Shown here: one piece after another, positions 4,401 through 27,602 of the stretch
Numbering within the stretch: the stretch's first letter is position 1
Layout: each line of letters starts with the position of its first letter
Assembly: GCA_028873845.1 (NCBI GenBank)
Contig: JAPPNO010000047.1
Location: 1 to 32,410 of the forward strand
DNA: 32,410 nucleotides
Reading direction: 5' to 3'
Source of the DNA: Gemmatimonadota bacterium
Lineage (GTDB): Bacteria; Gemmatimonadota; Gemmatimonadetes; Longimicrobiales; Gaopeijiaceae
The notes under the pieces: model-generated
Told to the model about the DNA's origin: nothing
Databases searched by the model: none
The model's input: only the letters and a program-made list of their open reading frames with translations
Translations under genes and position numbers: made by a program

Positions 4401-4448
4401 GGGGGGGAGCGACCCCACCATATGTCAACCGGGGTTTCCGTTTTGTAA

Positions 4449-4559
4449 ACTGCGGACAACCTGTTCGGCGTAGTGGCCGAAGATCCGTCGCGTGTCGTGC
4501 TCGTCCTGGGAGACGTGACACTGCCCGAGAGCGGGACGCTTCGCTTCGCGTACATGTGA
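4449..4559 (+). pseudogene. Possible gene remnant (36-codon fragment)
   Basis: An open frame between an in-frame TAA (4446-4448) and TGA (4557-4559) reads TADNLFGVVAEDPSRVVLVL and then GDVTLPESGTLRFAYM. The alternation of hydrophobic and charged residues looks like the end of a real beta-rich protein, yet there is no convincing start or ribosome site. I do not recognise the family. It may be a deletion scar or chance. Confidence 0.25.
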
Positions 4560-4596
4560 GATCGCCCCCGCCCGGCGAACCGGGCGGGGGCGATCT
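4559..4596. terminator. Bidirectional hairpin between convergent genes
   Basis: A perfect 16-bp stem (AGATCGCCCCCGCCCG with its complement) closes a 6-nt loop (GCGAAC). It lies 36 nt downstream of the minus-strand lipoprotein stop and about 160 nt after the plus-strand VPS10-like gene. No T-tract follows on either strand, so it may be a GC-type terminator or an RNA-stabilising 3' stem; position between convergent genes favours termination in both directions. Confidence 0.75.
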
Positions 4597-4632
4597 GTTG
4601 GCCCCTCGCTGGGCTGCGAGAGGGTTGGGTGG

Positions 4633-7600
4633 TTATGCGCCGTCGATGACGCGGAGGCTGTAATCCTGTGTTGCGCCATCTTCGGACGTGATGGTGACAG
4701 TGTAGGGCGTCCCGTTACCCGTGGTCGCGCTCAGTCGGTAGCGGGTGGCCGGACAGACGTCGTCGTCGTCATCATCGCTGGCCGCGACCGCGTTGCCGCC
4801 TGTTGCCCTCACGCTCACCCTCTGCGCGCAGTAGGCGTTTTCGTTCGCCTCGTCGCCGAAGGTCTCCAATGTGAAGATAAGGTTGACGGAAGACGCGCCG
4901 GTCGTCGTAAAGGTGAAGCCGTTGGCACCGGCGTCCGCTGCCGTGTGAGTAGCCAGGTCCGTTGTATCGGCCCGGGCGATATTCGCGGCCGCGATATCGT
5001 TGCCCACCGGATTCTGACGTGAGACCAGCAGGCTGTACACGTGATCGTTGTACCCGTTGGCCGCGGTCATCGTCACGGTGATGGTGTTCTCCAGGTTGTC
5101 CGCTACCGCTGACCCGGTCTTGTTGAATCCCAGGTCGCAGCTGTAGGTCGAGCATTGGCCGGCCTGGACGGCGGCAGTGGAAGCCGAGGGTGACACATCG
5201 AGTTCCCAGCTGGACCCCAGGGGAATCGCGCCGTTGCGGGTGCCGAAGACAAACCCGACGCTCTCCGACTGCCAGCTGATGGTCCCGATGTTGCTCGTGT
5301 TATCCGTCGATGGTTCGGAAACCCGCGACCAGCCGGCGGTAGCATCGGTGCTCGTGGTGTCGTTGTAGGTGGCGACATCGGTGCCGTGCATACTCCACCT
5401 CACCCGGACACCGGCACCCAGCGTGTCGTTGGCCGAAGCGGTGGTGCTGTAGACGTGGAGGGTGCCCAGGCCCTGGTAGTCGTTGCGACCACTGACCATC
5501 CCACTCAGTTGGGTAGGAGCGGTTCCCTCGCCCGAGTCAACTGTGCCATCACCATTCGAGTCCCAATCCGCGGCATCGTCATCGGGCATGCCGGTGGCCG
5601 AATCGACCTTCGGAGCCGCCCAGCCCACGTCCTCGATCGTGGCGGTGTAGGTGCCCTCCAGCGCGTTGTCGAGCTCAAAGCCGCCGTTTGTGGCCGTGGT
5701 CCTTTCGACGGGAGCGCCGCCGAATGGCGTGGTGATGCGGACATCGATGTTGCCGTCCGCGCCGCTCGAGTTGCTCACCGTACCGGCCACCGTGCCGTTC
5801 TCCCACACGAGGGCGAAGTTCTGCCATACGCCCGTCACGTCGTCATCGGTGTCGGTCGTGCCCTGATCGTCCGTGTACATCGATGTCGCGTTGGTCGTCG
5901 TGGTACCGGTCCACTGGGGCTTGGCCAGGTCGGTATCGGTCGGCAGCTCCGGATAGACCATCGCGGCCGTCGCTCCCGAAATGTTCCCCGGGCTTCTGCG
6001 CGCCGGCATGGTACGCCATGCCCGGTAGCCGCTTCCACCGCTCGCTATGACACGGTAGGTCGCCCCCGCATCCGCCAGGTCGTCGAAGGCGTAGTACCCG
6101 TCGGCGTCGGTCGTGGTGCTTCCGACCCTGGTTGCCCCGCCGAGGGCTCCGGTGACGGTACTGATTCGACCACCCCGGTAGAGCGTCACGGTGACGCCCT
6201 CGATGGCTTCGTCGCCGCGCATCAGGTTGTCGCCGTCGTCATTGCCGACGTAGCCCCTGACGGACAGGCCCTGCCTGGTGGTCATCCAGCTGGCGCCGTC
6301 CGTTCCCCGGATGCCGACCCAGGTGGTGTCCATGCCTTCCTCATCTTCCTCATCGGCGTACTCGTCGTGGTACACCGCAACCATGGCCGGGTTGGGGCTG
6401 CCGGTGGTGACGGCAATCGAGTAGTCCTCGCTGCCTGAGATGGCCATGACCTCGTACTCGCCATCCTGGAGACCGGAGACGGAGTAGTTGCCCGGGCCAC
6501 CGTCCACGGAAGTGGTTCCCGTGCTGTCGCCGGTGGCGCCGTGGCCGCTGGTCGCATCGATTACGACCGCGTGGCCGCTCTCGTTGCCCACGTATCCGCT
6601 GACCATGCCGGTCATCCACTGGTACCCGTAGGTGGCACACCAGTCGTCGCTTGAATCGCTCGACGCCGTGCAGAGCCTCACTTCGGGGCCTGCACCGCTC
6701 ATGTCGCCGAAGGCGCCAACGGTCGCGCCGAGGTCCAGATCCTGGCCGAAGGTCTCGATATCCGAGTACTCGCTGACGAGGACGCGGTTCGCGCCCACCC
6801 GGAATCGGACTGTGATTTCCTCGCCCGCGGGCAGGTGCGTGAAGGTCTTCATGCCGCCGGCACCGAAGTCGCCCTTGGCCTCGATACGGTCCGTAGGATC
6901 GTCCACATCCGGATCCTGCTCGTCCAGGTCGTGGTCGTACTCCAGGGTCTGGAGACGGCCGCGGTCGTCACGAACCATCAGTTCGACGGTCATTCCATTG
7001 CCCACGCCGGCTGCGGGGCGGTGGTCACCGCGCGGAAGCGGGCTCCGGTAGTCGGAGTAGCCCTCCACGTCATCCGCCTCGCGGTACACGCCGAGCGTGA
7101 GCGACTGCGTCGTCCAGGTGACGTAGATGGCGCCGAGGTCGTTGGCCATATGCGTGTTCAGCACCGGATGCTCGAGACCCGTGTGGCTATGCGAGAGCAT
7201 GTCCGACTGAGTCCACATCTCACTGCCGTCGGGCTGGGGGGCCTCCTCGTGGAGTCCGACCTCGAAGGTCATCGGCAGGTCGTCCACCGCGACCGGTACC
7301 GTGACCTTGGCAAGGCCATCTTCGTCGGTCGCCACGCCGTTGGTCGCCGTCCAGCCTTCGAGGAACTCGTTGCCGTCGCGCGCGTCCGCGTTGCTCTTCA
7401 CCCACCACTGGAAGTTGGCCACTGTGTTGAGCACCCGCACCGCCGTCGGGGCCTGGCTGACCCGGGCGGTCGACGCGTAGGTGATCTCGATGTCCTCGTT
7501 GTCGGAGGCAACGATGCCGGGAATCGCCGCGCCCATGTACTTGAGGAAGACGAGGTGGTCGGTGCCCTGTCCGCCCGGGCCCGTGTCCATGGCGCGCGGG

Positions 7601-9804
7601 AAGTGGAACACCGCTATCCCGAGCGTGTCGGTCGTCGCCATGCCGAGCATGTTCGTGCCGTTGTCGGCGTCGTCCGCGTTCGGATACAGTTCCAGCGACA
7701 CGCCGACCATCGGGAGTCCGTGGCTCGCACTGTCCGCGTACCCGAGCACCGCCCCGGCCACGATCGTCTGCATGGTGATCCGGAAGGGGAAGTTGACCAT
7801 CGCGGCTTCGGCGGCGGCCACATTGACCACCTGACCGGTGAGCTCACCCGAGAAGCGGAAGCCGAAATGGCTGATAGCGGCCGCCAGTGTGTCGGTCATG
7901 TTGATGAGCACCCGGTAGGAACCGGCCATCAGGCCCTCGAAGGCGTAGGAGCCGTCCGGCATGACGAAGCCGTACTGGACGTCGTTCACGCCAGGGCCCT
8001 GCAGCAGAAGCGGAACGCCGGGGATGCCCGCCGCCGTCAACGCCGCCATCATCTCCGCCGACATCGCGAGGGGCGGCTCGCCTTCGGTGTGCATGCCGTC
8101 GGCGTTGACCTCGTCCAGGAAGAGCATGCCGCTGACCGAAGCGGTCCGCGTGTGCATGCCCTCGAAGTTCTGGACCACCGCGGCGTCCTGCGCCACTTCC
8201 AGATCCGCTTCGCTCATGTCGAAGCTGTACGCCAGGGTGTCCCAGCCCGCGATCGCAACCGTGTAGTCGCCCTCGGCCAGGCCGGTGAAGGCGTACTGTC
8301 CGCCGTCGGCCGTCTCGGCCGTCATGTCGGCGTCGCCCGAGAGCGTGACCATGATTCCGTCCAGGCCCATCCCTTCCACGCTCACCCGGCCGCTGATGCC
8401 TGCCGTGCGCAGAAGCTCGCCCTGGAACGCAACGGTCGCCGTCTCGCGCAGGCCCACCGACACGCTCTGCGTCGTGGCCTCGAACTCGTACTCGTTCGCG
8501 TCGAAGTCCGAAATCGCGACCGCGTAGTCGCCCGCGTGCAGATCGTCGACCATGTAGTAGCCGGCGTCGTTGGTCATCGTCTCGTGCTCTTCGTCCTTCG
8601 GGCCGCCGGTCACCGTGACCGTCACGCCCGGAATCGCATGACCCTCGACCGTGACCGTACCCGCGATCCCGGCCGTGCGGAGCATGATGCCCTCGAACGG
8701 CACCGAAGCCGTCTCCTGGAGCGCGACCGTGACCGTCGCCGTGGTGACGTCGAAGCCGTACTCGTCGTCGTCGAAGCCGGTGATCCCGACCGAGTACTCG
8801 CCCGCGTGCAGATCGGTGAAGGAGAACTGCCCGGCGGCGTTGGTCGAGGTCTCGTCCTCTTCACCCTCGCCCTGGAGCGTGACGGTGACCTCGCCGAGCC
8901 CCGTGCCCTCGACCGTGACCGTGCCCATGATCGACGCGGTCCGCAGGTAGATGCCCTCGAAGGGCACGCTGGCGGTCTCGCCGTGGGCGACCGTGACGGT
9001 CTGCGACGTGACGTCGAAGCCGTACAGGTCCGGGTCCGGGTTGGTGATGCCGACCGAGTAGTCGCCGGAACGCAGTTCGCTGAAGGTGAACTGGCCCGCG
9101 CCGTTGGTCGTCGCCTCGCGCTCTTCGCCCCTGCCCTGCAGGCTGACCGTCACGTCCGCGAGCGGGTTGTTCCCCACGGTGACCTGGCCGGTCACGCCGG
9201 AGGTCCGCAGATACGTCCCCTCGAAGGGAACGACCTTGGACTCGCCGACCGCGATCATCGCGGTCGAGGCGGTGGAGCCGAAGGCGACGTCGTCCTCGTC
9301 GAATCCGGAGATCTCGACGGTGTAGTTGCCGGCGCGCAGGCCGGTGAACGCGTACTGCCCGTTGGCGTCCGTCAGCGTCTCGGAATTGCTCATCCCGGAC
9401 AGCTTGACGGTGACCCCGCCGAGGCCCTCGTTCTCGACCGTCACCGCCCCCATGATGGCGGAGGTGCGGATCCAGGAACCCGGGAAGTTGACGGTGACGT
9501 TCTCGCCGTCGGTGGCGATCGTCGCCGCGGACGACGTCTGATCGAACGTCGCGTCGTCCGGGTAGTTGCTGATGGTGACCGTGTATGCACCGGCTTCGAC
9601 GCCGTCGAACCGGTACATGCCTCCGTTGGCCGTGATGGCCGTGGCGCCGTTGCTCAGGGTGACGGAAACCCCGTCGACCCCCTGCCCCTCGACCGAGACC
9701 AGCCCGTCGATCGAGCCGGTGGGCGGCGGAGGATCGACAGGATCTCCGCACGCGATCGGGAGTGCAAGCAACATGGCTGCCGCCAGGAGCTTGAGTCTGT
9801 TCAT
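4633..9804 (-). CDS. Giant surface lipoprotein with seven tandem Ig-like (carboxypeptidase-regulatory/CNA-B-like) modules
   Basis: 1723 aa. Start at ATG 9804, preceded on the minus strand by GGAG at a good distance and followed by a lipoprotein-like signal (LLAAAMLLALPIAC, Cys19; proline at -3 is atypical). Residues ~29-560 contain seven near-repeats of ~88 aa, each opening with R-T-(A/S)-x-I/V-x-G-x-V-x-V-E-G, then GVTVTLxG, xxGxYxFTGLxAGxYTVxI and a closing PFEG. This is the fold of carboxypeptidase-regulatory/SdrD-B/CNA-B domains. The middle (~560-1000) is more diverged; a further module (SVRGYVGNDDGDNLMRGDEA...TDADGYYAFDDL) carries Asp-rich turns that could bind calcium. The C-terminus (~1560-1723) is a cadherin-like beta-sandwich with NDHVYSLLVSR and ATQDYSLRV and a run of six Asp. 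No catalytic domain is seen; a stalk or adhesin role is inferred. Confidence 0.85.
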   Translation of the reverse strand: MNRLKLLAAAMLLALPIACGDPVDPPPPTGSIDGLVSVEGQGVDGVSVTLSNGATAITANGGMYRFDGVEAGAYTVTISNYPDDATFDQTSSAATIATDGENVTVNFPGSWIRTSAIMGAVTVENEGLGGVTVKLSGMSNSETLTDANGQYAFTGLRAGNYTVEISGFDEDDVAFGSTASTAMIAVGESKVVPFEGTYLRTSGVTGQVTVGNNPLADVTVSLQGRGEEREATTNGAGQFTFSELRSGDYSVGITNPDPDLYGFDVTSQTVTVAHGETASVPFEGIYLRTASIMGTVTVEGTGLGEVTVTLQGEGEEDETSTNAAGQFSFTDLHAGEYSVGITGFDDDEYGFDVTTATVTVALQETASVPFEGIMLRTAGIAGTVTVEGHAIPGVTVTVTGGPKDEEHETMTNDAGYYMVDDLHAGDYAVAISDFDANEYEFEATTQSVSVGLRETATVAFQGELLRTAGISGRVSVEGMGLDGIMVTLSGDADMTAETADGGQYAFTGLAEGDYTVAIAGWDTLAYSFDMSEADLEVAQDAAVVQNFEGMHTRTASVSGMLFLDEVNADGMHTEGEPPLAMSAEMMAALTAAGIPGVPLLLQGPGVNDVQYGFVMPDGSYAFEGLMAGSYRVLINMTDTLAAAISHFGFRFSGELTGQVVNVAAAEAAMVNFPFRITMQTIVAGAVLGYADSASHGLPMVGVSLELYPNADDADNGTNMLGMATTDTLGIAVFHFPRAMDTGPGGQGTDHLVFLKYMGAAIPGIVASDNEDIEITYASTARVSQAPTAVRVLNTVANFQWWVKSNADARDGNEFLEGWTATNGVATDEDGLAKVTVPVAVDDLPMTFEVGLHEEAPQPDGSEMWTQSDMLSHSHTGLEHPVLNTHMANDLGAIYVTWTTQSLTLGVYREADDVEGYSDYRSPLPRGDHRPAAGVGNGMTVELMVRDDRGRLQTLEYDHDLDEQDPDVDDPTDRIEAKGDFGAGGMKTFTHLPAGEEITVRFRVGANRVLVSEYSDIETFGQDLDLGATVGAFGDMSGAGPEVRLCTASSDSSDDWCATYGYQWMTGMVSGYVGNESGHAVVIDATSGHGATGDSTGTTSVDGGPGNYSVSGLQDGEYEVMAISGSEDYSIAVTTGSPNPAMVAVYHDEYADEEDEEGMDTTWVGIRGTDGASWMTTRQGLSVRGYVGNDDGDNLMRGDEAIEGVTVTLYRGGRISTVTGALGGATRVGSTTTDADGYYAFDDLADAGATYRVIASGGSGYRAWRTMPARRSPGNISGATAAMVYPELPTDTDLAKPQWTGTTTTNATSMYTDDQGTTDTDDDVTGVWQNFALVWENGTVAGTVSNSSGADGNIDVRITTPFGGAPVERTTATNGGFELDNALEGTYTATIEDVGWAAPKVDSATGMPDDDAADWDSNGDGTVDSGEGTAPTQLSGMVSGRNDYQGLGTLHVYSTTASANDTLGAGVRVRWSMHGTDVATYNDTTSTDATAGWSRVSEPSTDNTSNIGTISWQSESVGFVFGTRNGAIPLGSSWELDVSPSASTAAVQAGQCSTYSCDLGFNKTGSAVADNLENTITVTMTAANGYNDHVYSLLVSRQNPVGNDIAAANIARADTTDLATHTAADAGANGFTFTTTGASSVNLIFTLETFGDEANENAYCAQRVSVRATGGNAVAASDDDDDDVCPATRYRLSATTGNGTPYTVTITSEDGATQDYSLRVIDGA
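8140..9720 (-). repeat. Tandem coding repeats inside the giant lipoprotein gene
   Basis: Module boundaries marked by the R-T-(A/S) codons recur near 9466, 9203, 8942, 8676, 8407 and 8146, i.e. every 261-269 bp. Neighbouring copies, especially those between about 8640 and 9200, share long stretches of DNA as well as protein (for example the region encoding ASVPFEG). Such repeats can expand or contract by recombination, so module number may differ between strains. Confidence 0.8.
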
Positions 9805-9911
9805 GCGTTCTTCTCCATGTTGAGAAGGGTTGGGAAGCGGCCCCGCTCTCGGGGCCCGGATATGGATCACGTCAGGGGCAAAATCGGTGCCAGTTTACAG
9901 CTTTTTCGGTC

Positions 9912-9946
9912 TTGTCCCTGGTTGTCCCGATATGACGGATGGACAA
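9912..9946. promoter_or_regulatory. Repeated TTGTCC boxes, possible operator
   Basis: TTGTCC occurs at 9912-9917 and 9922-9927 and its complement GGACAA at 9941-9946. The second and third form an inverted repeat with a 13-nt spacer. They sit 108-142 nt upstream of the lipoprotein start, a sensible place for a regulator site; the regulator is unknown. Confidence 0.35.
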
Positions 9947-9989
9947 CTGTTGGCGGCCTGTTCATTGAGGCGCACAGCCGACTGCCGGT

Positions 9990-10008
9990 AACTGCGCACT
10001 TTGCAGTT
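9990..10008. promoter_or_regulatory. Inverted repeat AACTGC-N7-GCAGTT
   Basis: A 6-bp perfect inverted repeat with a 7-nt loop, flanked on both sides by GGTAAC (9987-9992 and 10009-10014). It may be an operator or a small hairpin; function unknown. Confidence 0.25.
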
Positions 10009-10189
10009 GGTAACAATGCCAATCCACTCAAAACGACTCACACTTGCACCCCAAGAAGAAGAACACCCACCGTAGCGGGGCAACCGGAATCGGCAACCAA
10101 GGCACCCGTCGGCATCGGCATGTGTTTCATCGGTCCAGTTTCCCTACAGCAGTCAGGAATCGGACCCCTCTTCGCATGATTCGGGCTCC

Positions 10190-10504
10190 TCAGGCACGCC
10201 TGCGACCGCTCCGCCCCGCGCCGTTTTCGCGCGCAAACCAGGCTGCGGCCCGCCTGAGAATGTCCCGCTCGACTCTGAGCCGTTCATTGTCCCGTTTCAG
10301 GCGGAGCAACTCCTTCCGTGCTTCCGCCGGCGGTCCGTCGCGGCGCCATCCTTCGTCACGGTCCGCCTGCCTGACCCAGTTACGAATCGTCTGCTCCGAC
10401 GGCGCGAACTCCCGTGCCAGGGATCCGGGGCTGCGCCCGGCCCGCACGAGCCCGACCATCCGCTCCCTGAATTCCGGCGGATACCGGCCTACCGCGGCGC
10501 CCAC
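10190..10504 (-). CDS. IS3-family transposase OrfA (helix-turn-helix subunit)
   Basis: 104 aa from GTG 10504. RYPPEFRERMVGLVRAGRSP, the helix-turn-helix ending SEQTIRNWVRQADRDEG, and the leucine-zipper-like region RLKRDNERLRVERDILRRAAAWFARE are diagnostic of IS3-family OrfA. The first few codons (GAAVG) differ from the usual Met-x-(R/K)-(K/R) start, consistent with the junction to the OrfB fragment lying right at the start. Normally OrfA is followed by OrfB through a -1 frameshift; here non-transposon sequence follows. Confidence 0.8.
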   Translation of the reverse strand: MGAAVGRYPPEFRERMVGLVRAGRSPGSLAREFAPSEQTIRNWVRQADRDEGWRRDGPPAEARKELLRLKRDNERLRVERDILRRAAAWFARENGAGRSGRRRA

Positions 10505-10860
10505 GGTCCCCCCCCTCGGACCCCCATGCTCTTCATCAGCCGGGCAACCCGCTTCTGGCTCACCCGAACGCCCTCCTCCCGCAGTGCGGCATGGATTCGC
10601 GGACGCCCGTAGGTGCCGCGGCTGTCGTTCCAGATGGACCGGATCCGGTCCCGGAGTTCATCGTCACGCCGTTCACGGTTCGACGGAGGACGCTTCAACC
10701 AGTCGTAGTACCCGCTGGACGAAAGGCCCAGCGCCCTGCACATGGCCAGGAGCGGGAATTCGGCCTGATGGGCCTTGATGAAGGCGTACCCCTGCCGAGG
10801 ATCGACCCTGTTCCCGGCACTGCCCGCGCCTCGGCTCCCGTCCCCACTCATCACCGACAT
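10489..10860 (-). pseudogene. Truncated IS3-family transposase OrfB (N-terminal part only)
   Basis: The frame contains QGYAFIKAHQAEFPLLAMCR, LGLSSSGYYDWLKRPPS, RDRIRSIWNDSRGTYGRPRI and EEGVRVSQKRVARLMKSMGV, the standard N-terminal HTH_21 region of OrfB. Just after MGVRGG it ends in PWAPR and stop, and the DDE (rve) catalytic core that should follow is absent. Its last 16 nt overlap the OrfA start. Homology begins near 10797; the exact upstream boundary next to the hexapeptide gene is uncertain. Confidence 0.75.
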
Positions 10861-10867
10861 GACGGCG

Positions 10868-11446
10868 CTACGCGATGGCGTGGCCGCGCGCCGGCACGAC
10901 CGAGTTGCCGGGAATCCGAACGCCCTGCTGCAGACGGGCACGTTTGCCGACCTGCGCATTGGGACCTACGACCACCCGGGCCCCGAGCGCGGTCCGCGAA
11001 CCGATTTCGGCCCCCGCGCCGATCCACGCATGGGACCCGACCGAAACCCGGCTGCCGACCCTGGCGCCACGGTCGACGAGCGTACCCTTGCGGAGGGTAG
11101 TCCGCTGCTCGACCAGCGCTCCGGCCGAGACCCGCGATCCGGACCCGATGTTGGTCCGGTCGCCCAGCACGGCACGAGTCCCCACTTCGACCTTCGGGCC
11201 GATCCTGGCGCCCTGTCCCGTCGTCGAACCGGGCCCCAGGTGCGCTTCCGGCCCAACCACGGCTTCATTCCTTATCGTCGCGTACTCCCCCACGTGCACA
11301 CCGGTCAGGATGATGGCGTTCGCACCGATGTGCGCGTTGCGGCCGACGGTCACGCCGCAGCCGATCATGGCGCCGGCCTCCACCGTGGCAGACGGGTCGA
11401 TACTGGCCGTTGAGTGAACCGTGGCGGTTGGGTCTATGTTGTTCAT
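10868..11446 (-). CDS. Left-handed beta-helix (hexapeptide-repeat) protein, acyltransferase-like
   Basis: 192 aa from ATG 11446, which has GGAGG about 9 nt upstream on the minus strand. Nearly the whole protein is hexad repeats of the [LIV]-G-x-x-x-x type: IDPTATVHSTASIDPSATVE, then IGCGVTVGRNAHIGANAIIL, and on to VGPNAQVGKRARLQQGVRI. This is the fold of the LbH acyltransferases such as LpxA, LpxD and sugar O-acetyltransferases. Unlike those there is no separate N- or C-terminal domain and I see no clear catalytic His in a recognisable context, so the substrate is unknown and it may be a structural or scaffold protein. It ends 8 nt before the IS remnant, which may have trimmed its C-terminus. 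Confidence 0.75.
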   Translation of the reverse strand: MNNIDPTATVHSTASIDPSATVEAGAMIGCGVTVGRNAHIGANAIILTGVHVGEYATIRNEAVVGPEAHLGPGSTTGQGARIGPKVEVGTRAVLGDRTNIGSGSRVSAGALVEQRTTLRKGTLVDRGARVGSRVSVGSHAWIGAGAEIGSRTALGARVVVGPNAQVGKRARLQQGVRIPGNSVVPARGHAIA

Positions 11447-11958
11447 CGTCCCGGTCCTCCTTCCGGCGGGGCCTGCGCAGCCTGGCCGAGGCCTTCCCAC
11501 AGTTCCCGACATGCCGCTCGAACAACCCCGCACGGCAGCCCCTGATCAGCTCCATGCCCTCGGGCGCCCGCGACAAACGCGTGCAGACGCCCACCTAAGC
11601 GTCGAAAGCCAACCAGTTGCTACGCAAGGGATTGCGAAGGTGTCACCGGCAGTGGAGGGCTTGCGGGGGCCGGCGGGCCGGGCATTGTCGTGACTATTGG
11701 TTCATGTACAACGGCGCTATGTGTACAACACAATCAACATCGCACCCTCGAAACAGGTTGACAGCGGGACCTGTGGCGCCACCGTCGCGGCCACCTGCCG
11801 CCGTTGTCTGCCAGGCCCCCAACTCCCCCGTCCCGCGCCAAGGCAGGGCACCTGGTCGCCGCACCCCGCCCGTCCGGCGCCTCGCCGCTCCCGGTGTTCG
11901 GGTGGCCTGATCCGGGGTGCCGGCGAAGTGAGGGTGAAGCTGCGGTGGACGAATCGAG
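11447..11958. other. Intergenic region between hexapeptide gene and hipA
   Basis: 512 bp without a gene I can support. Both flanking genes are on the minus strand, so this holds the hexapeptide gene promoter and the 3' side of hipA. A short minus-strand peptide (H-L-R-N-P-L-R-S-N-W-L-A-F-D-A then stop, near 11595-11643) is bounded by stops and looks like chance or a scar. The AT-richer part, 11690-11760, is the likely promoter area. Confidence 0.5.
11705..11729. promoter_or_regulatory. Direct repeat TGTACAAC, possible regulator site
   Basis: TGTACAAC occurs at 11705-11712 and 11722-11729, 17 nt apart, each containing the palindrome TGTACA. They lie in the AT-richest part of the hipA-hexapeptide intergenic region. 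A regulator binding two half-turn-spaced sites would fit; no specific protein is implied. Confidence 0.3.
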
Positions 11959-13191
11959 TCAGCAGCGCTCACCATCGCACGCAATCGACCGCGCCACCAC
12001 CTCGCGGTCCGCCGCGCTCACCCCGCTGCGGCGCATGACCACGTGCCATGACGACCGGACCGTGTCGTGGATCGTGTCGAAGATGGCCTCGGCCGCCTCG
12101 CGATCCAGCAGGAACCGTCCCGCGCCGCCCACCAGGTTCTCACGACTCGGCGAGCGGCCCGCCGGACCGCAGATCATGGCGAATTCGCGCGTGGCTCCCT
12201 CGACCGGCGGAGTCGGCACCGGACCGCTTGCCTTGACAAGCCGCCAGCCGCGCGCCTTCGCGACCATCATGGGACGGAGCAGGTCGTCGTTCAGGTTCGA
12301 GATTGCCGCGTTGAAACAGATACGGCGAAACAGTTCGCGCAGATCCTCGCGAGGGCGCGAACTCGTGCGGCGAACCTCGTCGGCAAGGGTCAGGTGGGAC
12401 CACCGCAGCCGCTCCTCCGGCGTGTCGTCCGTTCCGAGCAGGGTCAGGCCGCTGATCAGGCGGCTGCACGCATAGCCGTCGCCCACCCACTCGCGGTCCG
12501 GGCGCGGCACGAGCAGGATCTCCCCGCCGGCGACGCGCTCGACCCGGCTGGGAAGGACGTCCAGCCCGCAGTCGCGCGCAAGCCGCAGCGTCGCGTGGCG
12601 AACCCGGGCCTGATTCCACACCGAGTGCCCGTTCGTGATCTTTGCCACCCAGAGCGTGCGCTCGCGTTCGACGGTGACCTTCGGCGTGATCCTTATCGCA
12701 GGGCCCCGAGCCTGCGCAACCGGTGTTTCACCGTGTGCGTCCCGCTCCTCGTCCTGAACCGTCATGAGACTGACCAGTTCGTCGAAGGCCATCATGCGAG
12801 GCGTGGGCCGCGGAGCGCTGGCTCCTCGAGCGACAACGACGGCACCGGGCCGCTCTGTTTGAAGCTGATCCAGATGGTCGAACCCGCCGGCCACCTTCCG
12901 CTCACGGCTTCGCCGGGCGACCGGGCGACCCCACGAAGTCGGATCGGCGTCCCGGATCGCCCCGAACAGTCCATCGGAGCTGCTCGTCCTGCGCACGCGC
13001 TCGGTCAGCCTGAGCTGGACCGGGTCGAGTTCGACCGCTTCGCGCCGGTCCAGGTAGCTGCGCCCGTATACGAACTCCCCGAGCGGATCGCTTCCGGGCT
13101 CGCCGGAGACACGATAGCGGCCTGCTATCACATACTCGCACCGCCCCGGAAGAGCGACGAAGACGAAACGGTCGCAGTCAGAAGTTACCAT
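11959..13191 (-). CDS. hipA: HipA-family protein with eroded kinase motifs (likely pseudokinase)
   Basis: 410 aa from ATG 13191, overlapping hipB by 14 nt. The scaffold is clearly HipA: FVFVALPGRCEYVIAGRYRV, GEFVYGRSYLDRREAVELDP, LFGAIRDADPTSWGRPV, WNQARVRHATLRLARDCGLD, ELFRRICFNAAISNL and AGRFLLDREAAEAIFD. From memory of close homologues, the active-site signatures are changed. The GGARPKA phosphate loop reads ARGPAIRITPK, the RFDR strand reads RPDR, the catalytic DDHxRNH loop reads NDDLLRPMM, and the metal-binding Asp motif SPAYDL reads VKASGPV. The frame is intact and the flanks of each motif are well kept. HipA normally phosphorylates aminoacyl-tRNA synthetases to stop growth; this protein probably cannot. 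It may survive as a DNA-binding co-repressor with HipB. Confidence 0.85.
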   Translation of the reverse strand: MVTSDCDRFVFVALPGRCEYVIAGRYRVSGEPGSDPLGEFVYGRSYLDRREAVELDPVQLRLTERVRRTSSSDGLFGAIRDADPTSWGRPVARRSRERKVAGGFDHLDQLQTERPGAVVVARGASAPRPTPRMMAFDELVSLMTVQDEERDAHGETPVAQARGPAIRITPKVTVERERTLWVAKITNGHSVWNQARVRHATLRLARDCGLDVLPSRVERVAGGEILLVPRPDREWVGDGYACSRLISGLTLLGTDDTPEERLRWSHLTLADEVRRTSSRPREDLRELFRRICFNAAISNLNDDLLRPMMVAKARGWRLVKASGPVPTPPVEGATREFAMICGPAGRSPSRENLVGGAGRFLLDREAAEAIFDTIHDTVRSSWHVVMRRSGVSAADREVVARSIACDGERC

Positions 13192-13519
13192 CGAGCCGGC
13201 GGCGGCGCGGAGCCTGGGTTGGGAGGAGGGCCGACTCCAGAATCCTGCCCTCTTCGTCGCGATCCGGGTCGGCCACGAGGCTTGCGTCGTCGAGAAGGCC
13301 CAACGCCCACAGCACGCCGAAGTACGCGGCCGCCGAGGCGCCCGGTTTCCCCTTCTCAACGTTGGCGACCGTGAAGCGGGAGGTCCCCAGGCGATCCGCG
13401 ATGTCCTGAATGCGGAGCCGGCGGCGCAAACGGGCGGTGCGGAGGTTTCCGCCAAGGCGCCGCAGGGCCGCCTCGACGGCGGCGGGCGGACAAGTTGTGA
13501 TTGTAGTGCGATTTGGCAT
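13178..13519 (-). CDS. hipB: HipB-family antitoxin (XRE helix-turn-helix)
   Basis: 113 aa from ATG 13519. AALRRLGGNLRTARLRRRLR followed by IQDIADRLGTSRFTVANVEK is a textbook XRE/HipB helix-turn-helix at residues ~20-60. The tail (YFGVLWALGLLDDASLVADP, DEEGRILESA) is the conserved extension of this HipB branch. Known HipB proteins bind operators upstream of their own gene and neutralise HipA by holding it in an open state on DNA. The gene overlaps hipA by 14 nt, so they are co-translated. A 12-bp palindrome 36-47 nt upstream of the start is a plausible own operator. Unlike its partner, no motif here looks degraded. Confidence 0.85.
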   Translation of the reverse strand: MPNRTTITTCPPAAVEAALRRLGGNLRTARLRRRLRIQDIADRLGTSRFTVANVEKGKPGASAAAYFGVLWALGLLDDASLVADPDRDEEGRILESALLPTQAPRRRRLDGNF

Positions 13520-13974
13520 GCTGAACGTCCCCGATCATGCGGTGCGTACGAACCGTCTCATGAGACTCGGTCCGGACACCGTCACCCATCCCCTGTTCCC
13601 TTGCTGCATCCCTGCCCGGCAGCCGCGGACACTTGCCCTGCGGTCCGTGTTGCAATGTAGTCCGCGCCTGTTTCACGTAGAAGGGGACCTTCGTTTTGGC
13701 AACAGTGCCCCGGTCCGCCCCAATGCCTCGGTTTTCGCAATAGACAATACCTAACAACGACTTATGTAGACTATTATCACCAAACAGTGCACCAACCGGC
13801 AGTTGGCCCCGGCGTGCCCGGCATTGTGAGAACCCCCCCCATCCGATAGAATCGGGGCGGGAGACCGGGTTTGGAGCGGTGGGTACGGGTCGTCCGGTGC
13901 GACCGCGGGCCCGGTCGACCGGTTCGACCACAGGCGGTCATGGACGACCCGGGAGCGGAGGAGGAATTCCCGAA
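13520..13974. other. Divergent intergenic region between hipB and the lipase gene
   Basis: 455 bp without a supported gene. The centre (about 13735-13790) is strikingly AT-rich for this genome (AATAGACAATACC, then ACTTATGTAGACTATTATC) and is the likely promoter zone for one or both divergent units. Small hairpins follow: CCAAC-N5-GTTGG (13792-13806) and CCGAT-AGA-ATCGG (13843-13855), the latter preceded by eight C. A palindrome CCGGTCGACCGG lies at 13911-13922, shortly before the lipase ribosome site. No role can be assigned to these by sequence alone. Confidence 0.55.
13555..13566. promoter_or_regulatory. Palindrome GTCTCATGAGAC, candidate HipB operator
   Basis: A perfect 12-bp palindrome 36 bp upstream of the hipB start codon, with partial further symmetry (AACC before, GGTC after, offset by two bases). 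HipB-family repressors bind palindromes in this position; the sequence differs from the E. coli operator, as expected across phyla. Confidence 0.45.
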
Positions 13975-21325: not shown

Positions 21326-21350
21326 TGACTGGACCCGCGGTGTCCAATCA
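21326..21350. terminator. Inverted repeat between mazF and the first vWA gene
   Basis: TGACTGGAC-N7-GTCCAATCA, nine-base arms with one mismatch, begins 16 nt after the mazF stop. It has no T-tract, so it may be a terminator of the mazEF transcript or an operator for the vWA gene 62 nt further on. Confidence 0.4.
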
Positions 21351-21411
21351 GGTAAATGAAGGTTGGATGAGTAACCGGCGCCCCGCCGCGCCAAAGAAGG
21401 AGGACCGAACG

Positions 21412-23352
21412 ATGCGATACGCCATCAGAGAACGCGCCAACACGGCTCTGGCCCTTGCGCTCGCCGCGCTTGTTTGGGGGGGTGCCACCGCCGCCGAGGC
21501 GCAGACGGGGTCGATTCGGGGGCAGGTCACCGACGCCGTCAGCGGCGAGGCGATCCCGATCGCGCGGATCTCGGTGGAGGGGACACGGCTTCGCGCGCGG
21601 GCCGACGAGGACGGGCGGTATACGCTGTCGGGGGTGCCGGTGGGGGGTGTGGTCGTGGTGGCCGAATTCCTCGGATATGAGCCGGAGCGGCGGGAGGTGA
21701 CGGTGGTGCGGGGGCGGCCGACTGTTGTGGACTTCGAGCTTGTGGGAGTGGCGTGGAGGCGGATGACCGCGGATTCGATCGCCAGGGCGGCCGTCGTCGG
21801 GCAGCCGGTCGTGGAGGCGGAGAGGCGGCAGGCAGCTCTGCGCGGCCAGGTCCAGGTAGCGGCCGAGCAAGCCGCTCGGGTCCAGCCCCTCCACTTTGCA
21901 CCGCCCCACGACTTCAACACCGAATCCTACGCCCACATCGCCGAGAACGACTTCCGCCTGGTCAGCGCATCCCCTCTCTCGACCTTCTCGATCGACGTGG
22001 ACCGGGCCTCGTACTCCAACATCCGGCGCTTCATCCAGGACGGCGAGCGGCCGCCCGTCGACGCGGTGCGCATCGAGGAGATGATCAACTACTTCCCCTA
22101 CGATTGGGGCTCGGTGGGGCGCGAACACCCGTTTTCGGTGACCACCGAGGTGTGGGACGCCCCCTGGAAGCGGGAGCACCGGCTGGTCCGAATCGGGCTG
22201 CACGCGCGTTCGATCGACACCGCGGACCTGCCGCCCAGCAACCTGGTCTTCCTGCTCGACGTGTCGGGGTCGATGCGGCCGGAGAACAAGCTGCCGCTGC
22301 TGAAGAAGGCGTTCGCGCTGCTGGTGGACCAGCTGCGGGCGCAGGACCGGGTCGCGATCGTGGTGTACGCGGGCGCGGCGGGGCTGGTGCTGCCGTCGAC
22401 GCCGGGGAACAAGCGCGAGAAGATCCTGGCCGCGCTCGACAAGCTGCAGGCCGGGGGAAGCACGGCGGGGGGCGCCGGGCTCGAGCTCGCGTATGCGACG
22501 GCCTTCGAGCACTTCATGGACGGTGGGAACAACCGGGTCATCCTCGCCACAGACGGCGACTTCAACGTGGGCGCGTCGAGCGACGCCGAGATGGTGCGCC
22601 TGATCGAACAGGAGCGCGACGGCGGGACCTTCCTGACCGTGATGGGCTTCGGGACGGGGAACCTGAAGGACTCGAAGATGGAGCAGATCGCCGACCACGG
22701 GAACGGGAACTTCCACTACGTCGACGGGCTGCTCGAGGCGCGCAAGGTGCTGGTCGAGGAGATGGGCGGGACGCTGTTTACGCTGGCCAAGGACGTGAAG
22801 CTCCAGATCGAGTTCAATCCGGCGAGCGTGGCGGGGTATCGGCTGATCGGGTACGAGAACCGGCTGCTGGCGGACGAGGACTTCAACGACGACACGAAGG
22901 ACGCGGGGGAGCTGGGGGCGGGGCACACGGTGACGGCGCTGTATGAGGTGGTTCCGGTGGGGGTTGCGGTACCGCGCGAGGAGGTGGACGACCTGCGCTA
23001 CCAGCCACAGCCGGACGACCTGCCGGCGAGCGAGTTCGCGGACGAGATGATGTACGTGAAGGTGCGCTACAAGGATCCCGACGGGACGAAGAGCAGGCTG
23101 CTGGAGCAGGCGGTGGCGGAGCGTTCGGGGGCGCCGTCGGTGGACTTCCGGTTCGCGACGGCGGTAGCCGGGTTCGGGATGCTGCTGCGCGACTCGAAGC
23201 ACGCGGGGGACCTGACGCTGGGCGATGTGGTCGGGCTCGCGGAGAAGGGGAAGGGGGACGATCCGCGCGGGTATCGCGGGGAGTTCATCCGGCTGGTGGA
23301 GGCGACGCGCGATCTGGGGTTGTTGCGGGGGGAGGGGGCGGGGTCGAGGTAG
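21412..23352 (+). CDS. vWA/DUF3520 (YfbK-type) exported protein, paralogue A
   Basis: 646 aa from ATG 21412 with AAGGAGG 9 nt upstream. Signal peptide ending AEAQ; carboxypeptidase-regulatory-like domain ~30-110 (SIRGQVTDAVSGEAIPIARI); an Arg/Ala/Gln-rich linker unique to this copy; then the YfbK region starting FNTESYAHIAENDFRLVSAS and PLSTFSIDVDRASY; von Willebrand A domain with MIDAS DVSGS (Asp283), the Thr in GGSTAGG and Asp in ATDGDFN; and a C-terminal DUF3520 domain (GYRLIGYENRLLADEDFNDD). The MIDAS is complete, so metal-dependent ligand binding is expected. Function is unknown in this family; an envelope protein-protein adhesion or chaperone-like role is inferred. First of three tandem paralogues. 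Confidence 0.85.
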   Translation: MRYAIRERANTALALALAALVWGGATAAEAQTGSIRGQVTDAVSGEAIPIARISVEGTRLRARADEDGRYTLSGVPVGGVVVVAEFLGYEPERREVTVVRGRPTVVDFELVGVAWRRMTADSIARAAVVGQPVVEAERRQAALRGQVQVAAEQAARVQPLHFAPPHDFNTESYAHIAENDFRLVSASPLSTFSIDVDRASYSNIRRFIQDGERPPVDAVRIEEMINYFPYDWGSVGREHPFSVTTEVWDAPWKREHRLVRIGLHARSIDTADLPPSNLVFLLDVSGSMRPENKLPLLKKAFALLVDQLRAQDRVAIVVYAGAAGLVLPSTPGNKREKILAALDKLQAGGSTAGGAGLELAYATAFEHFMDGGNNRVILATDGDFNVGASSDAEMVRLIEQERDGGTFLTVMGFGTGNLKDSKMEQIADHGNGNFHYVDGLLEARKVLVEEMGGTLFTLAKDVKLQIEFNPASVAGYRLIGYENRLLADEDFNDDTKDAGELGAGHTVTALYEVVPVGVAVPREEVDDLRYQPQPDDLPASEFADEMMYVKVRYKDPDGTKSRLLEQAVAERSGAPSVDFRFATAVAGFGMLLRDSKHAGDLTLGDVVGLAEKGKGDDPRGYRGEFIRLVEATRDLGLLRGEGAGSR

Positions 23353-23463
23353 GGGGGGACGGGGGCGTTTTCGGGAGAGCGGGCCAGGTCGCGACCGTTG
23401 ATCGGTCCGAATCCGCAACCTTCGCCGTCCTGGCTGGTATCAAGCGGTATGGCTTGAAGCCTG

Positions 23464-23483
23464 GGCGGCCGCCATTCGGGCGC
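23464..23483 (+). promoter_or_regulatory. Conserved 20-nt leader block of paralogue B
   Basis: A 20-nt block, GGCGGCCGCC followed by ATTCGGGCGC, lies 53 nt before the start codon and is identical to 25659-25678, which is 54 nt before the start of paralogue C. The first ten bases are a perfect palindrome. Intergenic sequence around it is otherwise diverged, so it may be a conserved regulatory or RNA element, or just the remains of duplication. Confidence 0.5.
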
Positions 23484-23516
23484 TGCCACCGTCCACGCAA
23501 ACCCCGAGGAGGGACT

Positions 23517-25631
23517 ATGCGATCCACTTTCGTTCGAACTGCTGCAGCCGCAGCCCTGCTGGCGCTCGCGGGCGCCACCGCAGCCATGGCACCGGTCGGC
23601 GTCGACACGATCTCGACGCCCACGGGCCCCGAAGGAGTGGCCGCCCCGGCGGCCACCGGCACATCCGGTTTCCTCAACACCACCAACCCGATCTCCTCCC
23701 TGACGTGCCCGGGCGAGGTGATCTGGCGCGCGGCGCCGAGGGCCCGGTCTCCGCGGCCCAACCGCCGGCCAGCTCCGCCACCACCGGTCCCAGGAGGGCC
23801 GACCGGGCGCATCGAAGGGCGGGTCACGGACGCGAAGTCCGGCCAGCTGCTCCTCGATGCCGCGGTCACCGTGGTGGGCACCAACTTCAGCACCCTGACC
23901 AACCAGGCCGGCAACTATTCCCTGCCGACCGTTCCGGTTGGTGAGCAGACCGTGAAGGTCGTCATTCTCGGATACGCGACCCAGGAACGACAGGTGACGG
24001 TCACCGCGGGGCGGGCGGCGGTTGCCGACTTCGCGCTTGAGGTTGCGCCGATCAACCTCGACGAGATCGTCGCTACCGGAGTGGCGGGGGAGGTCCAACG
24101 AAGGAAGGCAGGGGTCCCGTTGCCACGTGTCAGCGTCGAGGGCATCGTGGCACGCCGCGGAGTCGGCGGAGGCCGGCAACTCCGCATCCGGCACGGCGGC
24201 AACACCGAGTCGTACGCCCGCATCGCGGAGAACGACTTCAGGCTCGTCGGCTCCGCCCCGCTCTCCACCTTCTCGATCGACGTCGACCGGGCGTCGTACG
24301 CCAACGTCCGGCGCTTCATCCAGGACGGGCAGCGTCCGCCCATCGACGCGGTGCGCATCGAGGAGATGATCAACTACTTCTCCTACGCGTGGGACGATGT
24401 GGCCGGCGAGCACCCCTTCGCCGTGTCCACCGAGGTGTCGCGGGCACCCTGGAAGCGCGAGCACCGCCTGGTCAGGATCGGGCTGCACGCGCCTTCGATC
24501 GACGCGCGTGACCTCCCGCCCAGCAACCTGGTCTTCCTGCTGGACGTTTCGGGTTCGATGGGCGAGCCGAACAAGCTGCCGCTCCTGCAGAGCGCATTCT
24601 CGATGCTGGCCGACCAGCTCAGGCCCGAGGACCGTGTCACGGTCATGACCTACTCCAACGAGGTCTGCCTCGCGCTGCCGTCCACCTCGGGCGAGCGGAA
24701 ACATGAGATCCTCACCCTGATCGAACGCCTTCGGGCGGGGGGTGGCACCGCGGGCGGCCCGGCGCTCCAGGCAGCCTACGACATCGCGCGCAAGCACCAC
24801 GTCGACGGCGGCAACAACCGGATCATCCTGGCCACCGACGGCGACTTCAACGTCGGCCCCGCCAGCGACGAGGCGATGGTCGAGCTGGTCGAGAGGGAGC
24901 GCAAGGCGGGCACCCACCTGACCGTGCTGGGCTTCGGCACCGGCAACCTGAAGGACTCGAAGATGGAGGGGATCGCCGACAACGGTAACGGCAACTTCCA
25001 CTACGTGGACGGCCTGCTGGAAGCGCGGAAGGTCCTGATCGAGGAGATGGGCGGAACCATCCTGACGCTGGCGAAGGACGTGAAGCTCCAGGTCGAGTTC
25101 AACCCGGCCCGGGTGGCGGGGTACCGCCTGATCGGGTACGAGAACCGGCTGCTCGCCGACGAGGACTTCAACGACGACACGAAGGACGCGGGCGAGCTCG
25201 GGGCCGGACACACGGTCACGGCGCTCTACGAAGTGGTTCCCGCGGGAACCGACGTGCCGCGCCTGATCGACGAGCTCCGCTATCAGACCGAGCCGGGAGA
25301 CCCGCCGGTCACCCGGTTCGAGGACGAACTCATGTACGTCAAGGTCCGCTACAAGGACCCCGACGGGGCGAAGAGCAGGCTGCTGGCGCAGGCGGTGGCC
25401 GACCGGAGCGGGACGGCGTCCGCCGACTTCCGCTTCGCCGCGGCCGTCGCCGGCTTCGGCATGCTGCTCCGCAACTCGCCGCACGCCGGCACCTTCTCGC
25501 TGAACGATGTGGTCGAGCTCGCCGAGAACGGCAAGGGTGATGATCGGCGCGGCTACCGCGGCGAGTTCGTCCGGCTGGTCGAGGTGACGCGGGATCTTGG
25601 GCTGCTGAGGAGGGAAACGGACGGGTCGTAG
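23517..25631 (+). CDS. vWA/DUF3520 (YfbK-type) exported protein, paralogue B
   Basis: 704 aa from ATG 23517 (GAGGAGGG upstream). Signal peptide, then a stretch found only in this copy (FLNTTNPISSLTCPGEVIW and a Pro/Arg-rich PRPNRRPAPPPPVPGGP), a carboxypeptidase-regulatory domain at ~100-180 (RIEGRVTDAKSGQLLLDAAV), then INLDEIVATGVAGEVQRR. That last segment resembles the TonB-box/plug entrance of SusC-type outer-membrane receptors. The vWA domain has MIDAS DVSGS (Asp343), Thr in GGGTAGG and Asp in ATDGDFN; DUF3520 follows. The vWA core differs from A and C at VTVMTYSNEVCLALPSTSG. Possibly co-transcribed with its neighbours (intergenic gaps 164 and 81 nt). Confidence 0.85.
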   Translation: MRSTFVRTAAAAALLALAGATAAMAPVGVDTISTPTGPEGVAAPAATGTSGFLNTTNPISSLTCPGEVIWRAAPRARSPRPNRRPAPPPPVPGGPTGRIEGRVTDAKSGQLLLDAAVTVVGTNFSTLTNQAGNYSLPTVPVGEQTVKVVILGYATQERQVTVTAGRAAVADFALEVAPINLDEIVATGVAGEVQRRKAGVPLPRVSVEGIVARRGVGGGRQLRIRHGGNTESYARIAENDFRLVGSAPLSTFSIDVDRASYANVRRFIQDGQRPPIDAVRIEEMINYFSYAWDDVAGEHPFAVSTEVSRAPWKREHRLVRIGLHAPSIDARDLPPSNLVFLLDVSGSMGEPNKLPLLQSAFSMLADQLRPEDRVTVMTYSNEVCLALPSTSGERKHEILTLIERLRAGGGTAGGPALQAAYDIARKHHVDGGNNRIILATDGDFNVGPASDEAMVELVERERKAGTHLTVLGFGTGNLKDSKMEGIADNGNGNFHYVDGLLEARKVLIEEMGGTILTLAKDVKLQVEFNPARVAGYRLIGYENRLLADEDFNDDTKDAGELGAGHTVTALYEVVPAGTDVPRLIDELRYQTEPGDPPVTRFEDELMYVKVRYKDPDGAKSRLLAQAVADRSGTASADFRFAAAVAGFGMLLRNSPHAGTFSLNDVVELAENGKGDDRRGYRGEFVRLVEVTRDLGLLRRETDGS

Positions 25632-25658
25632 TCGTAGGAAGGCATGACCTCATACTCC

Positions 25659-25678
25659 GGCGGCCGCCATTCGGGCGC
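25659..25678 (+). promoter_or_regulatory. Conserved 20-nt leader block of paralogue C
   Basis: Identical to the block at 23464-23483 and at nearly the same distance from the start codon (54 nt). Its conservation across otherwise diverged leader DNA argues for recent duplication of the whole unit or for function. Confidence 0.5.
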
Positions 25679-25712
25679 GTCCGCCATCCATCCCCAGACC
25701 CGGGAGGGTACT

Positions 25713-27602
25713 ATGGGAACCTTGTTTGTTCGAACTGCCGGGATGTTGGCACTGCTCGCCGTAGCGGGCCCCGGCGCAACAACCGTCCAGACGCCGACCG
25801 GTACGATCGAGGGAGCGATCACCGACGCGGCGTCCGGGCAACCGCTGCAGGGCGCCGCGGTGTCCGTGGTGGGCACCGGATTCCAGGCGCTCAGCACCAC
25901 GGAGGGTCGCTACAGCCTGCCGGGCATCCCGGCCGGGGAACACACCGTCAAGGTGGTCATCCTCGGCTACGCCACGCAGGAGAGGCAGGTGACGGTCACG
26001 GCGGGCTACGTGACGGTGGCCGATTTCGCGCTGCAGATCAGCGCGATCAACCTCGACGAGGTCGGTGTCAGCGGTGCGGCGGGTAAGGACCAGCGCCGAT
26101 ATGACTGGGGCTACCTTGGCACGACGTGCTGCGGTTTCAGCGGCGGCCGGGTCGGCTTCAACACCGAGTCGTACGCCCACATCGACGAGAACGACTTCAA
26201 GCTCGTCAGCGCCTCCCCGCTCTCCACCTTCTCGATCGATGTCGACCGGGCCTCGTACGCCAACGTCCGCCGCTTCATCCAGGACGGCGAGCGGCCGCCC
26301 GTCGACGCGGTCCGCATCGAGGAGATGGTCAACTACTTCCCCTACGACTGGGGCGACGTGGCCGGAGAGCATCCGTTCGCCGTGACCACCGAGGTGTGGG
26401 AGGCGCCCTGGAAACAGGAGCACCGGCTGGTGCGCATCGGTCTGCACGCGCAGTCGATCGACATCGAGGACCTCCCGCCCGGCAACCTGGTCTTCCTGCT
26501 CGACGTTTCGGGGTCGATGTCGCCTTCCAACAAGCTGCCGCTGCTCAAGACGGCCTTCGCGTTGCTGGTGGACCAGTTGAGGCCGCAGGACCGGGTCGCC
26601 ATCGTGGTCTACGCGGGGGCGGCGGGGATGGTGCTTCCGTCCACGCCGGGTGACCGGCAGGGGGAAATCCTCGCCGCGCTCGGCCGGCTGGAGGCGGGTG
26701 GCAGCACCGCCGGCGGAGAAGGCCTCAAGCTCGCCTACGAGACCGCCCGCGAGCACTTCATCGACGGCGGCAACAACCGCGTGATCCTGGCCACCGACGG
26801 CGACTTCAACGTCGGCCCTTCCAGCGACGGCGAGATGGTGCGGCTCATCGAGAAGGAGCGCGAGAGCGGCGTCTTCCTGACCGTGCTGGGCTTCGGCACC
26901 GGGAACCTGAAGGACTCGAAGATGGAGCAGATCGCCGACCACGGGAACGGCAACTTCCACTACGTCGACGGGCTGCTCGAGGCCCGGAAGGTGCTCGTGG
27001 AGGAGATGGGCGGAACGCTCCTCACCCTGGCCAGGGACGTGAAGCTGCAGATCGAGTTCAACCCGGCGCGCGTGGCGGGCTATCGCCTGATCGGGTACGA
27101 GAACCGGCTCCTCGCCGACGAGGACTTCAACGACGACACGAAGGACGCGGGTGAACTCGGGGCCGGACACACGGTGACCGCTCTGTATGAGGTGGTTCCG
27201 GCGGGAGTCGAGGTGCCGCGCGAGGGTGAGGTGGACGAGTTGCGTTACCAGCCGGGGGCGGACGATCCGCCGCTCAGCGAGTTCGAGGGCGAGATGATGT
27301 ACGTCAAGGTCCGTTACAAGGACCCCGACGGAACGAAGAGCAGGTTGCTGGAGCGGGCGGTGGCGGATCGTTTGGGGTCGCCTTCGACCGACTTCCGGTT
27401 CGCGACGGCGGTCGCGGGCTTCGGCATGCTGCTGCGCGACTCCGAGTACGCGGGCGACCTGACGCTGAATGATGTGGTGGAGCTCGCCGAAAGAGCCAGG
27501 GGCGACGATCCGCGCGGGTACCGCGGCGAGTTCATCCGGCTGGTCGAGGCGGTGCGTGACCTGGGGCTGCTCAGGACGGACACGGATGAGGGGATGAAGT
27601 AG
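25713..27602 (+). CDS. vWA/DUF3520 (YfbK-type) exported protein, paralogue C
   Basis: 629 aa from ATG 25713 (GGGAGGG upstream). Order: signal peptide, carboxypeptidase-regulatory domain ~30-110 (TIEGAITDAASGQPLQGAAV), degenerate TonB-box-like INLDEVGVSGAAGKDQRR, a short Cys-containing linker (TTCCGFSGG), then the YfbK/vWA region with MIDAS DVSGS (Asp264), Thr in GGSTAGG and Asp in ATDGDFN, then DUF3520. The N-terminal part and leader resemble paralogue B, but the vWA core (VAIVVYAGAAGMVLPSTPG, EQIADHGNGNFHYVDGLLEA) and C-terminus resemble paralogue A, so the gene looks mosaic. The three copies together suggest diversification by duplication and gene conversion. Confidence 0.85.
   Translation: MGTLFVRTAGMLALLAVAGPGATTVQTPTGTIEGAITDAASGQPLQGAAVSVVGTGFQALSTTEGRYSLPGIPAGEHTVKVVILGYATQERQVTVTAGYVTVADFALQISAINLDEVGVSGAAGKDQRRYDWGYLGTTCCGFSGGRVGFNTESYAHIDENDFKLVSASPLSTFSIDVDRASYANVRRFIQDGERPPVDAVRIEEMVNYFPYDWGDVAGEHPFAVTTEVWEAPWKQEHRLVRIGLHAQSIDIEDLPPGNLVFLLDVSGSMSPSNKLPLLKTAFALLVDQLRPQDRVAIVVYAGAAGMVLPSTPGDRQGEILAALGRLEAGGSTAGGEGLKLAYETAREHFIDGGNNRVILATDGDFNVGPSSDGEMVRLIEKERESGVFLTVLGFGTGNLKDSKMEQIADHGNGNFHYVDGLLEARKVLVEEMGGTLLTLARDVKLQIEFNPARVAGYRLIGYENRLLADEDFNDDTKDAGELGAGHTVTALYEVVPAGVEVPREGEVDELRYQPGADDPPLSEFEGEMMYVKVRYKDPDGTKSRLLERAVADRLGSPSTDFRFATAVAGFGMLLRDSEYAGDLTLNDVVELAERARGDDPRGYRGEFIRLVEAVRDLGLLRTDTDEGMK

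Follow-up and report, generated by a model that had tools for sequence, protein, structure and literature searches.

Does a toxin whose active site has been altered represent a decaying gene copy, or a protein that is still maintained after its enzymatic activity was lost? The question was raised by a hipA gene in a 32,410-nucleotide stretch of a Gemmatimonadota genome (contig JAPPNO010000047.1; the window), for which a preliminary description had proposed that every active-site motif was eroded on an intact scaffold, not through random decay but through selection for a non-catalytic HipA.

Reading frame, predicted fold and active site

The hipA reading frame (positions 11959 to 13191, minus strand) runs without interruption from an ATG to a stop codon and encodes 410 aa, so the gene is full length, as had been described. 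The Pfam HipA_C domain matched residues 170-382 (7.7e-17; 62.1 bits vs. a curated cut-off of 30.5). The protein used as a single query gave only a chance match among PDB sequences, and a profile search of the PDB matched HipA and HipT. An AF2 model obtained from a 33-sequence alignment that included canonical relatives predicted that the HipA fold is retained (mean pLDDT 80.6, pTM 0.85); its best structural matches in the PDB were all HipA proteins (E ~1e-12, TM ~0.66), with those of E. coli and Shewanella ranking at the top and E. coli HipA 3dnv as the best one. Model confidence was very low for residues 154-169, around the former Gly-rich loop, and for residues 86-112. A model based on five kinase-dead sequences alone was uninformative (pLDDT 34), so the predicted fold leans on the canonical rows of the alignment.

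The alignment with HipA of E. coli K-12 and with the canonical relatives placed the changes in four motifs, all read on the minus strand and all at the positions where they had been described. The Gly-rich ATP loop, GTSMGGARPK in the relatives, is reduced to ARGPAIRITPK (12679-12714), with about six residues deleted; the catalytic loop NLDDHPRNH reads NLNDDLLRP (12271-12297; D309 to N, H311 to D and N314 to R, E. coli numbering); the Mg-binding motif SPAYDL reads VKASGP (12220-12237; D332 to G), and RFDR reads RPDR (12493-12504). D309, N314 and D332 have been described as catalytic or Mg-binding residues essential for the kinase activity of HipA, and the D309Q substitution removes both toxicity and tolerance (PMC11717353). 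Fold and profile place the window protein in the HipA family, but its sequence lacks the features of an active HipA kinase that were tested.

The same positions were compared in the six HipA proteins, described below, that are predicted to be kinase-dead. The Gly-rich loop is about six residues shorter in all of them, and its Ser/Thr-x-GG signature is gone in the six. The Mg ligands N314 and D332 are absent from all six (R and G in the window), while the catalytic D309 survives only in the G031 member (N in the window). In contrast, the ATP lysine K184 (12640-12642, minus strand; K181 of E. coli HipA), R230, D232 and D302 are kept throughout, which makes the statement that every motif was eroded a slight overstatement: it holds for the Gly-rich loop, D309, N314 and D332. 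It also needs adjusting in detail, given that the phosphate loop was shortened and not only substituted, and that the change in RFDR is a light one, in which the Phe alone was altered and R and D were kept. Eight positions are fixed in the six members with non-canonical residues, for instance R242 to C and E198 to R, the latter (12598-12600, minus strand) replacing a Glu that is invariant in the canonical relatives. The residues found at the dead positions differ from lineage to lineage within the group.

A predicted kinase-dead clade within one genus

A survey of 121 genomes of the family recovered close relatives sharing these losses in four genomes besides that of the window, all from its genus, with identities to the window HipA of 71% (genome G014), 62% (G013), 61% (G015) and 58% (G031). 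A sixth member, nearly identical to the G015 copy, was found in a MAG labelled as Chloroflexota (L058, JAPPDQ010000025.1). In a maximum-likelihood tree built with the motif columns left out, the six sequences formed one clade with 100/100 support, comprising five species of a single Gemmatimonadota genus and the near-copy. The next relatives (43-50% identity), present in many genomes, were all canonical and kept GTSMGGARPK, RFDR, NLDDHPRNH (NLDDYPRNH in L020-L022) and SPAYDL. A search of the order (154 genomes) and of genomes spread over the phylum (395) detected no further members; it was sensitive to the clade because its members scored >750 bits and the canonical proteins about 510 or less. 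Single-sequence scans of genome contigs and viral contigs recovered no relative; an alignment-based scan found relatives in genome contigs and none in viral contigs. Phage records contained one distant relative, and the plasmid relatives, known by identity alone, reached at most 42% identity.

Sequencing or assembly error was rejected, as five separate assemblies agree, and so was a recent private decay of the window copy, as the same losses occur in its relatives within the one clade. Canonical close relatives accompanied by random mutations in this copy alone were looked for and were not found. The L058 contig is almost identical to the G015 locus, suggesting either misbinning or a recent transfer.

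The location of the losses was evaluated with the 136 alignment columns that are ≥85% conserved in the canonical relatives, 25 of them in the active site and 111 elsewhere. The six kinase-dead sequences all kept 5/25 active-site columns and 70/111 of the others (Fisher p = 1.1e-4), so that 20/25 and 41/111, respectively, were lost. When the same test was applied to four canonical subclades, the active-site columns were the best kept of all (24-25/25). The active-site columns were picked from the known motifs, hence the columns under test were defined by the family and not selected as the best-looking ones. The scaffold, which had been called intact, is well kept, although it is not untouched.

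None of the six sequences contained a stop codon or a frameshift, whereas about 3-6 stop codons per lineage would be expected under neutral drift at the observed divergence. Pairwise dN/dS values (NG86) for hipA were 0.25-0.42 in the kinase-dead clade vs. 0.08-0.24 among the canonical relatives, and both pairs tested, including the youngest one (G013/G015), lay below 200/200 neutral simulations. Thus, the window hipA showed neither the neutral evolution nor the stops or frameshifts of a pseudogene. Ordinary decay is seen in other hipA copies of the same genus, which are truncated or carry stops or split frames, and these show how random decay looks there. The argument against random decay therefore held, on the losses shared by the relatives, the open frames and the dN/dS values below neutrality. 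As judged from the substitution rates, the HipA of this clade is still under selection, with a constraint about 2-3-fold looser than that of its canonical kin. The proposed selection for a non-catalytic HipA stood only in part: a full-length protein, apparently non-catalytic, has been kept, but selection against catalysis found no support, and fits less well with the relaxed constraint and with the differing residues at the dead positions. A better fit is that catalysis was no longer needed while the protein still was.

A census of the HipA family in 23 genomes of the genus yielded 59 full-length proteins, 50 of which kept D309, N314 and D332. The nine proteins without at least one of these residues corresponded to five from the clade described above, three from a second lineage, and one from genome G021. 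The second lineage is represented in three species (G016, G022 and G026; L180, L182 and L179, respectively) by proteins that are 81-87% identical and belong to a different HipA group; they carry D309R, N314S and D332G, lost separately from the main clade, with dN/dS values of 0.23-0.27 and, immediately upstream, an HTH gene resembling hipB. The ninth protein (L178) has N314S with both Asp kept; it may be the sister of the second lineage (support 94/90, on long branches) and a possible intermediate.

The HipB partner and the genomic surroundings

HipB is encoded on the minus strand at 13178-13519 (113 aa; HTH_31, 1.1e-6), upstream of hipA and overlapping its start by 14 bp, which is the arrangement of a hipBA operon. 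The gene is strongly constrained: dN/dS was 0.13-0.28 across the kinase-dead loci vs. 0.08-0.30 at the canonical ones, with no relaxation, although the young G013/G015 pair had too few hipB changes to judge constraint. The window, G014 and G031 share an identical HTH stretch, TSRFTVANVEKGKPG. The C-terminal tail in the window is LDGNF (13181-13195, minus strand), in which the residues preceding the terminal Phe are altered, while LDNDF was present in every close canonical relative read. The tails at the kinase-dead loci read LDGNF, LHGDF or LRDDF; the conserved tail is lost in G031, the only one of these loci without the terminal Phe. In E. coli, a pocket of HipA receives a C-terminal Trp of HipB (PMC10627512), and by analogy the kept aromatic end would fit a kept contact between the HipB tail and HipA.

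The search for a shared operator revealed none common to the kinase-dead loci. The palindrome ATGTTG...CAACAT, located at the promoter upstream of hipB in the canonical pairs L015, L016, L018, L042 and L061, is a probable HipB operator, and was missing at the kinase-dead loci. In G013 (L037, C77), G015 (L038, C175) and L058 the kinase-dead pair is divergent beside a canonical hipBA pair, and the two share one intergenic region with GTGCAAT/ATTGCAC repeats; the heptamer was seen at the divergent promoters of G013 and, in part, of G015, and nowhere else.

The window pair lies in a variable segment of ~9.5 kb (4408-13953) with a gene order common to G014, which is replaced by ~0.3-0.5 kb in G031 and G033. 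The Sortilin-like and LCAT-like genes that flank it are accordingly 0.3-0.5 kb apart in those two genomes, and are near neighbours in G018 too. Besides HipB and HipA, the segment encodes a large repeat protein and a hexapeptide-repeat protein, and it carries IS3-type transposase pieces. The repeat protein (4633-9870, minus strand) has 1745 aa with at least seven CarboxypepD_reg/SdrD_B-like domains and 60% identity to its G014 counterpart. The transposase pieces (10190-10959, minus strand) form two overlapping frames near hipA, and are also present in G014. The hexapeptide-repeat protein (10868-11533, minus strand), downstream of hipA, consists almost wholly of left-handed beta-helix repeats and is kept alongside hipA in G014 (84%). 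Elsewhere in the window, three consecutive related genes on the plus strand (21340-23352, 23454-25631 and 25644-27602) cross-match in the same relatives and are apparently tandem duplicates. In G031 the kinase-dead pair is downstream of a MocR-like regulator (named by inspection only). This site and the one beside canonical pairs are two other kinds of location, indicating that, after its origin, the module moved or was re-sorted.

A proposed retired toxin as partner of HipB

We give roughly even chances to the window HipA being a retired toxin that has been kept as the non-catalytic partner and co-repressor of HipB. An ancestral HipA of a canonical group would have lost the Gly-rich loop and the Mg-binding residues once, before the divergence of at least five species of the genus; the catalytic Asp would have been lost afterwards, in most lines, and the HipA fold would have been kept as the partner of a still fully constrained HipB. 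A HipB2-HipA2 complex would then act as a DNA-binding repressor, with HipA stabilising HipB on its operator and bridging it, without phosphorylating anything. E. coli HipA is a co-repressor that docks on HipB and on operator DNA within the complex (PMC3920265), and a role of this kind needs no catalysis. Of the two roles proposed beforehand, that of HipB co-repressor is favoured because HipB keeps a canonical level of constraint, whereas a decoy would be possible only with a canonical sibling next door, as in G013 and G015, and so would not be general. A tail that still docks on HipA would be expected to keep its terminal Phe, as all but one of the HipB proteins do; the second lineage, in which the same three residues disappeared independently and a HipB-like gene is kept, was also counted in favour of the co-repressor role. 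Counted against it were the missing canonical palindrome with no conserved operator in its place, the tail lost in G031, and the relaxed dN/dS and varied residues at dead positions, which would also be expected of a slowly drifting remnant.

Such a remnant would have lost its toxicity, and its operon would owe its persistence to linkage, mobility or recent selective history while HipA drifts to loss. This reading would account for a dN/dS 2-3 times that of the canonical relatives, the variation at the dead positions, the lost HipB tail of G031 and the position of the locus within a variable segment that carries IS3 pieces. We regard it as unlikely, given that dN/dS fell below every neutral simulation even for the youngest pair, that no stop was found in six sequences although several per lineage were expected, that decayed hipA copies of the genus do show stops and split frames, and that HipB is fully constrained. 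An anti-toxin or anti-addiction function is an explanation of similarly low probability. In this case the dead HipA, or more simply its HipB, would act against canonical toxins of its own HipA group, whether as a spare antitoxin or as a decoy that enters HipB-HipA complexes. It would agree with the divergent arrangement beside canonical hipBA, with HipA ~50% identical, in G013, G015 and the IRC4 contig, with the relatives of the group found on plasmids, and with HipB being more constrained than HipA; but the genome of the window (G000), G014 and G031 have no canonical sibling of the group, which would leave a decoy without a resident target in 3/5 genomes, and the HipBs of dead and canonical pairs differ in the recognition region and in the tail. 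Very improbable is an atypical active enzyme whose pocket still binds nucleotide and uses other residues, as in the SelO-type pseudokinases, which carry out AMPylation. The ATP lysine and D302 kept in the six proteins, and E331-G332 and C242 fixed in the clade, could be read in that way; however, the six have lost the Gly-rich loop and both Mg ligands as well as the conserved Glu, no conserved acidic residue has newly arisen at the Mg position, and the positions around the loop vary between lineages.

The co-repressor role can be set against the known systems. The window pair resembles HipBA of E. coli K-12 (HipA b1507, HipB b1508) in the order hipB-hipA, in an N-terminal subdomain plus HipA_C fold and in an HTH HipB, and HipA is a co-repressor there; in contrast to E. 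coli HipA, it lacks the Gly-rich loop and the equivalents of D309, N314 and D332, and the two proteins match structurally with ~15% identity. The canonical HipA group found in the genus and family of the window (L011-L031) shares with this pair 35-50% full-length HipA identity, the type of HipB (113 aa) and the gene overlap, but has intact kinase residues and the tighter dN/dS and LDNDF tail given above. In HipBST of E. coli O127 and Legionella, a HipA-derived piece without kinase function (HipS) also serves regulation; HipS, however, is only the N-subdomain and acts on the active kinase HipT, whereas in the window a whole HipA appears catalytically lost, with no separate kinase in the operon. 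In the 2021 phylogeny of Hip families (PMC8262856; Gerdes et al.), HipA homologues are likewise paired with HTH partners; the passages on motifs in that article report the kinase motifs as conserved, and no description of a kinase-dead lineage was found there. Neither was any description of HipA pseudokinases found in the literature searched.

Toxin-antitoxin operons are usually read as a poison and its antidote, and the pair in the window has probably been converted into a harmless regulator. For annotation, a HipA_C match above the cut-off is no proof of a kinase toxin. It is possible, though we hold it only tentatively, that HipA became a pseudokinase subunit of a HipB repressor more than once: at least two independent lineages of one genus would have dropped catalysis but kept the fold and HipB, and retired toxin kinases would form a lasting class of regulators comparable to the eukaryotic pseudokinases. 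A HipA that would have been dead before several species diverged, and that was kept with its repressor partner, offers a natural test of the shares that toxicity and regulation have in the retention of a toxin.
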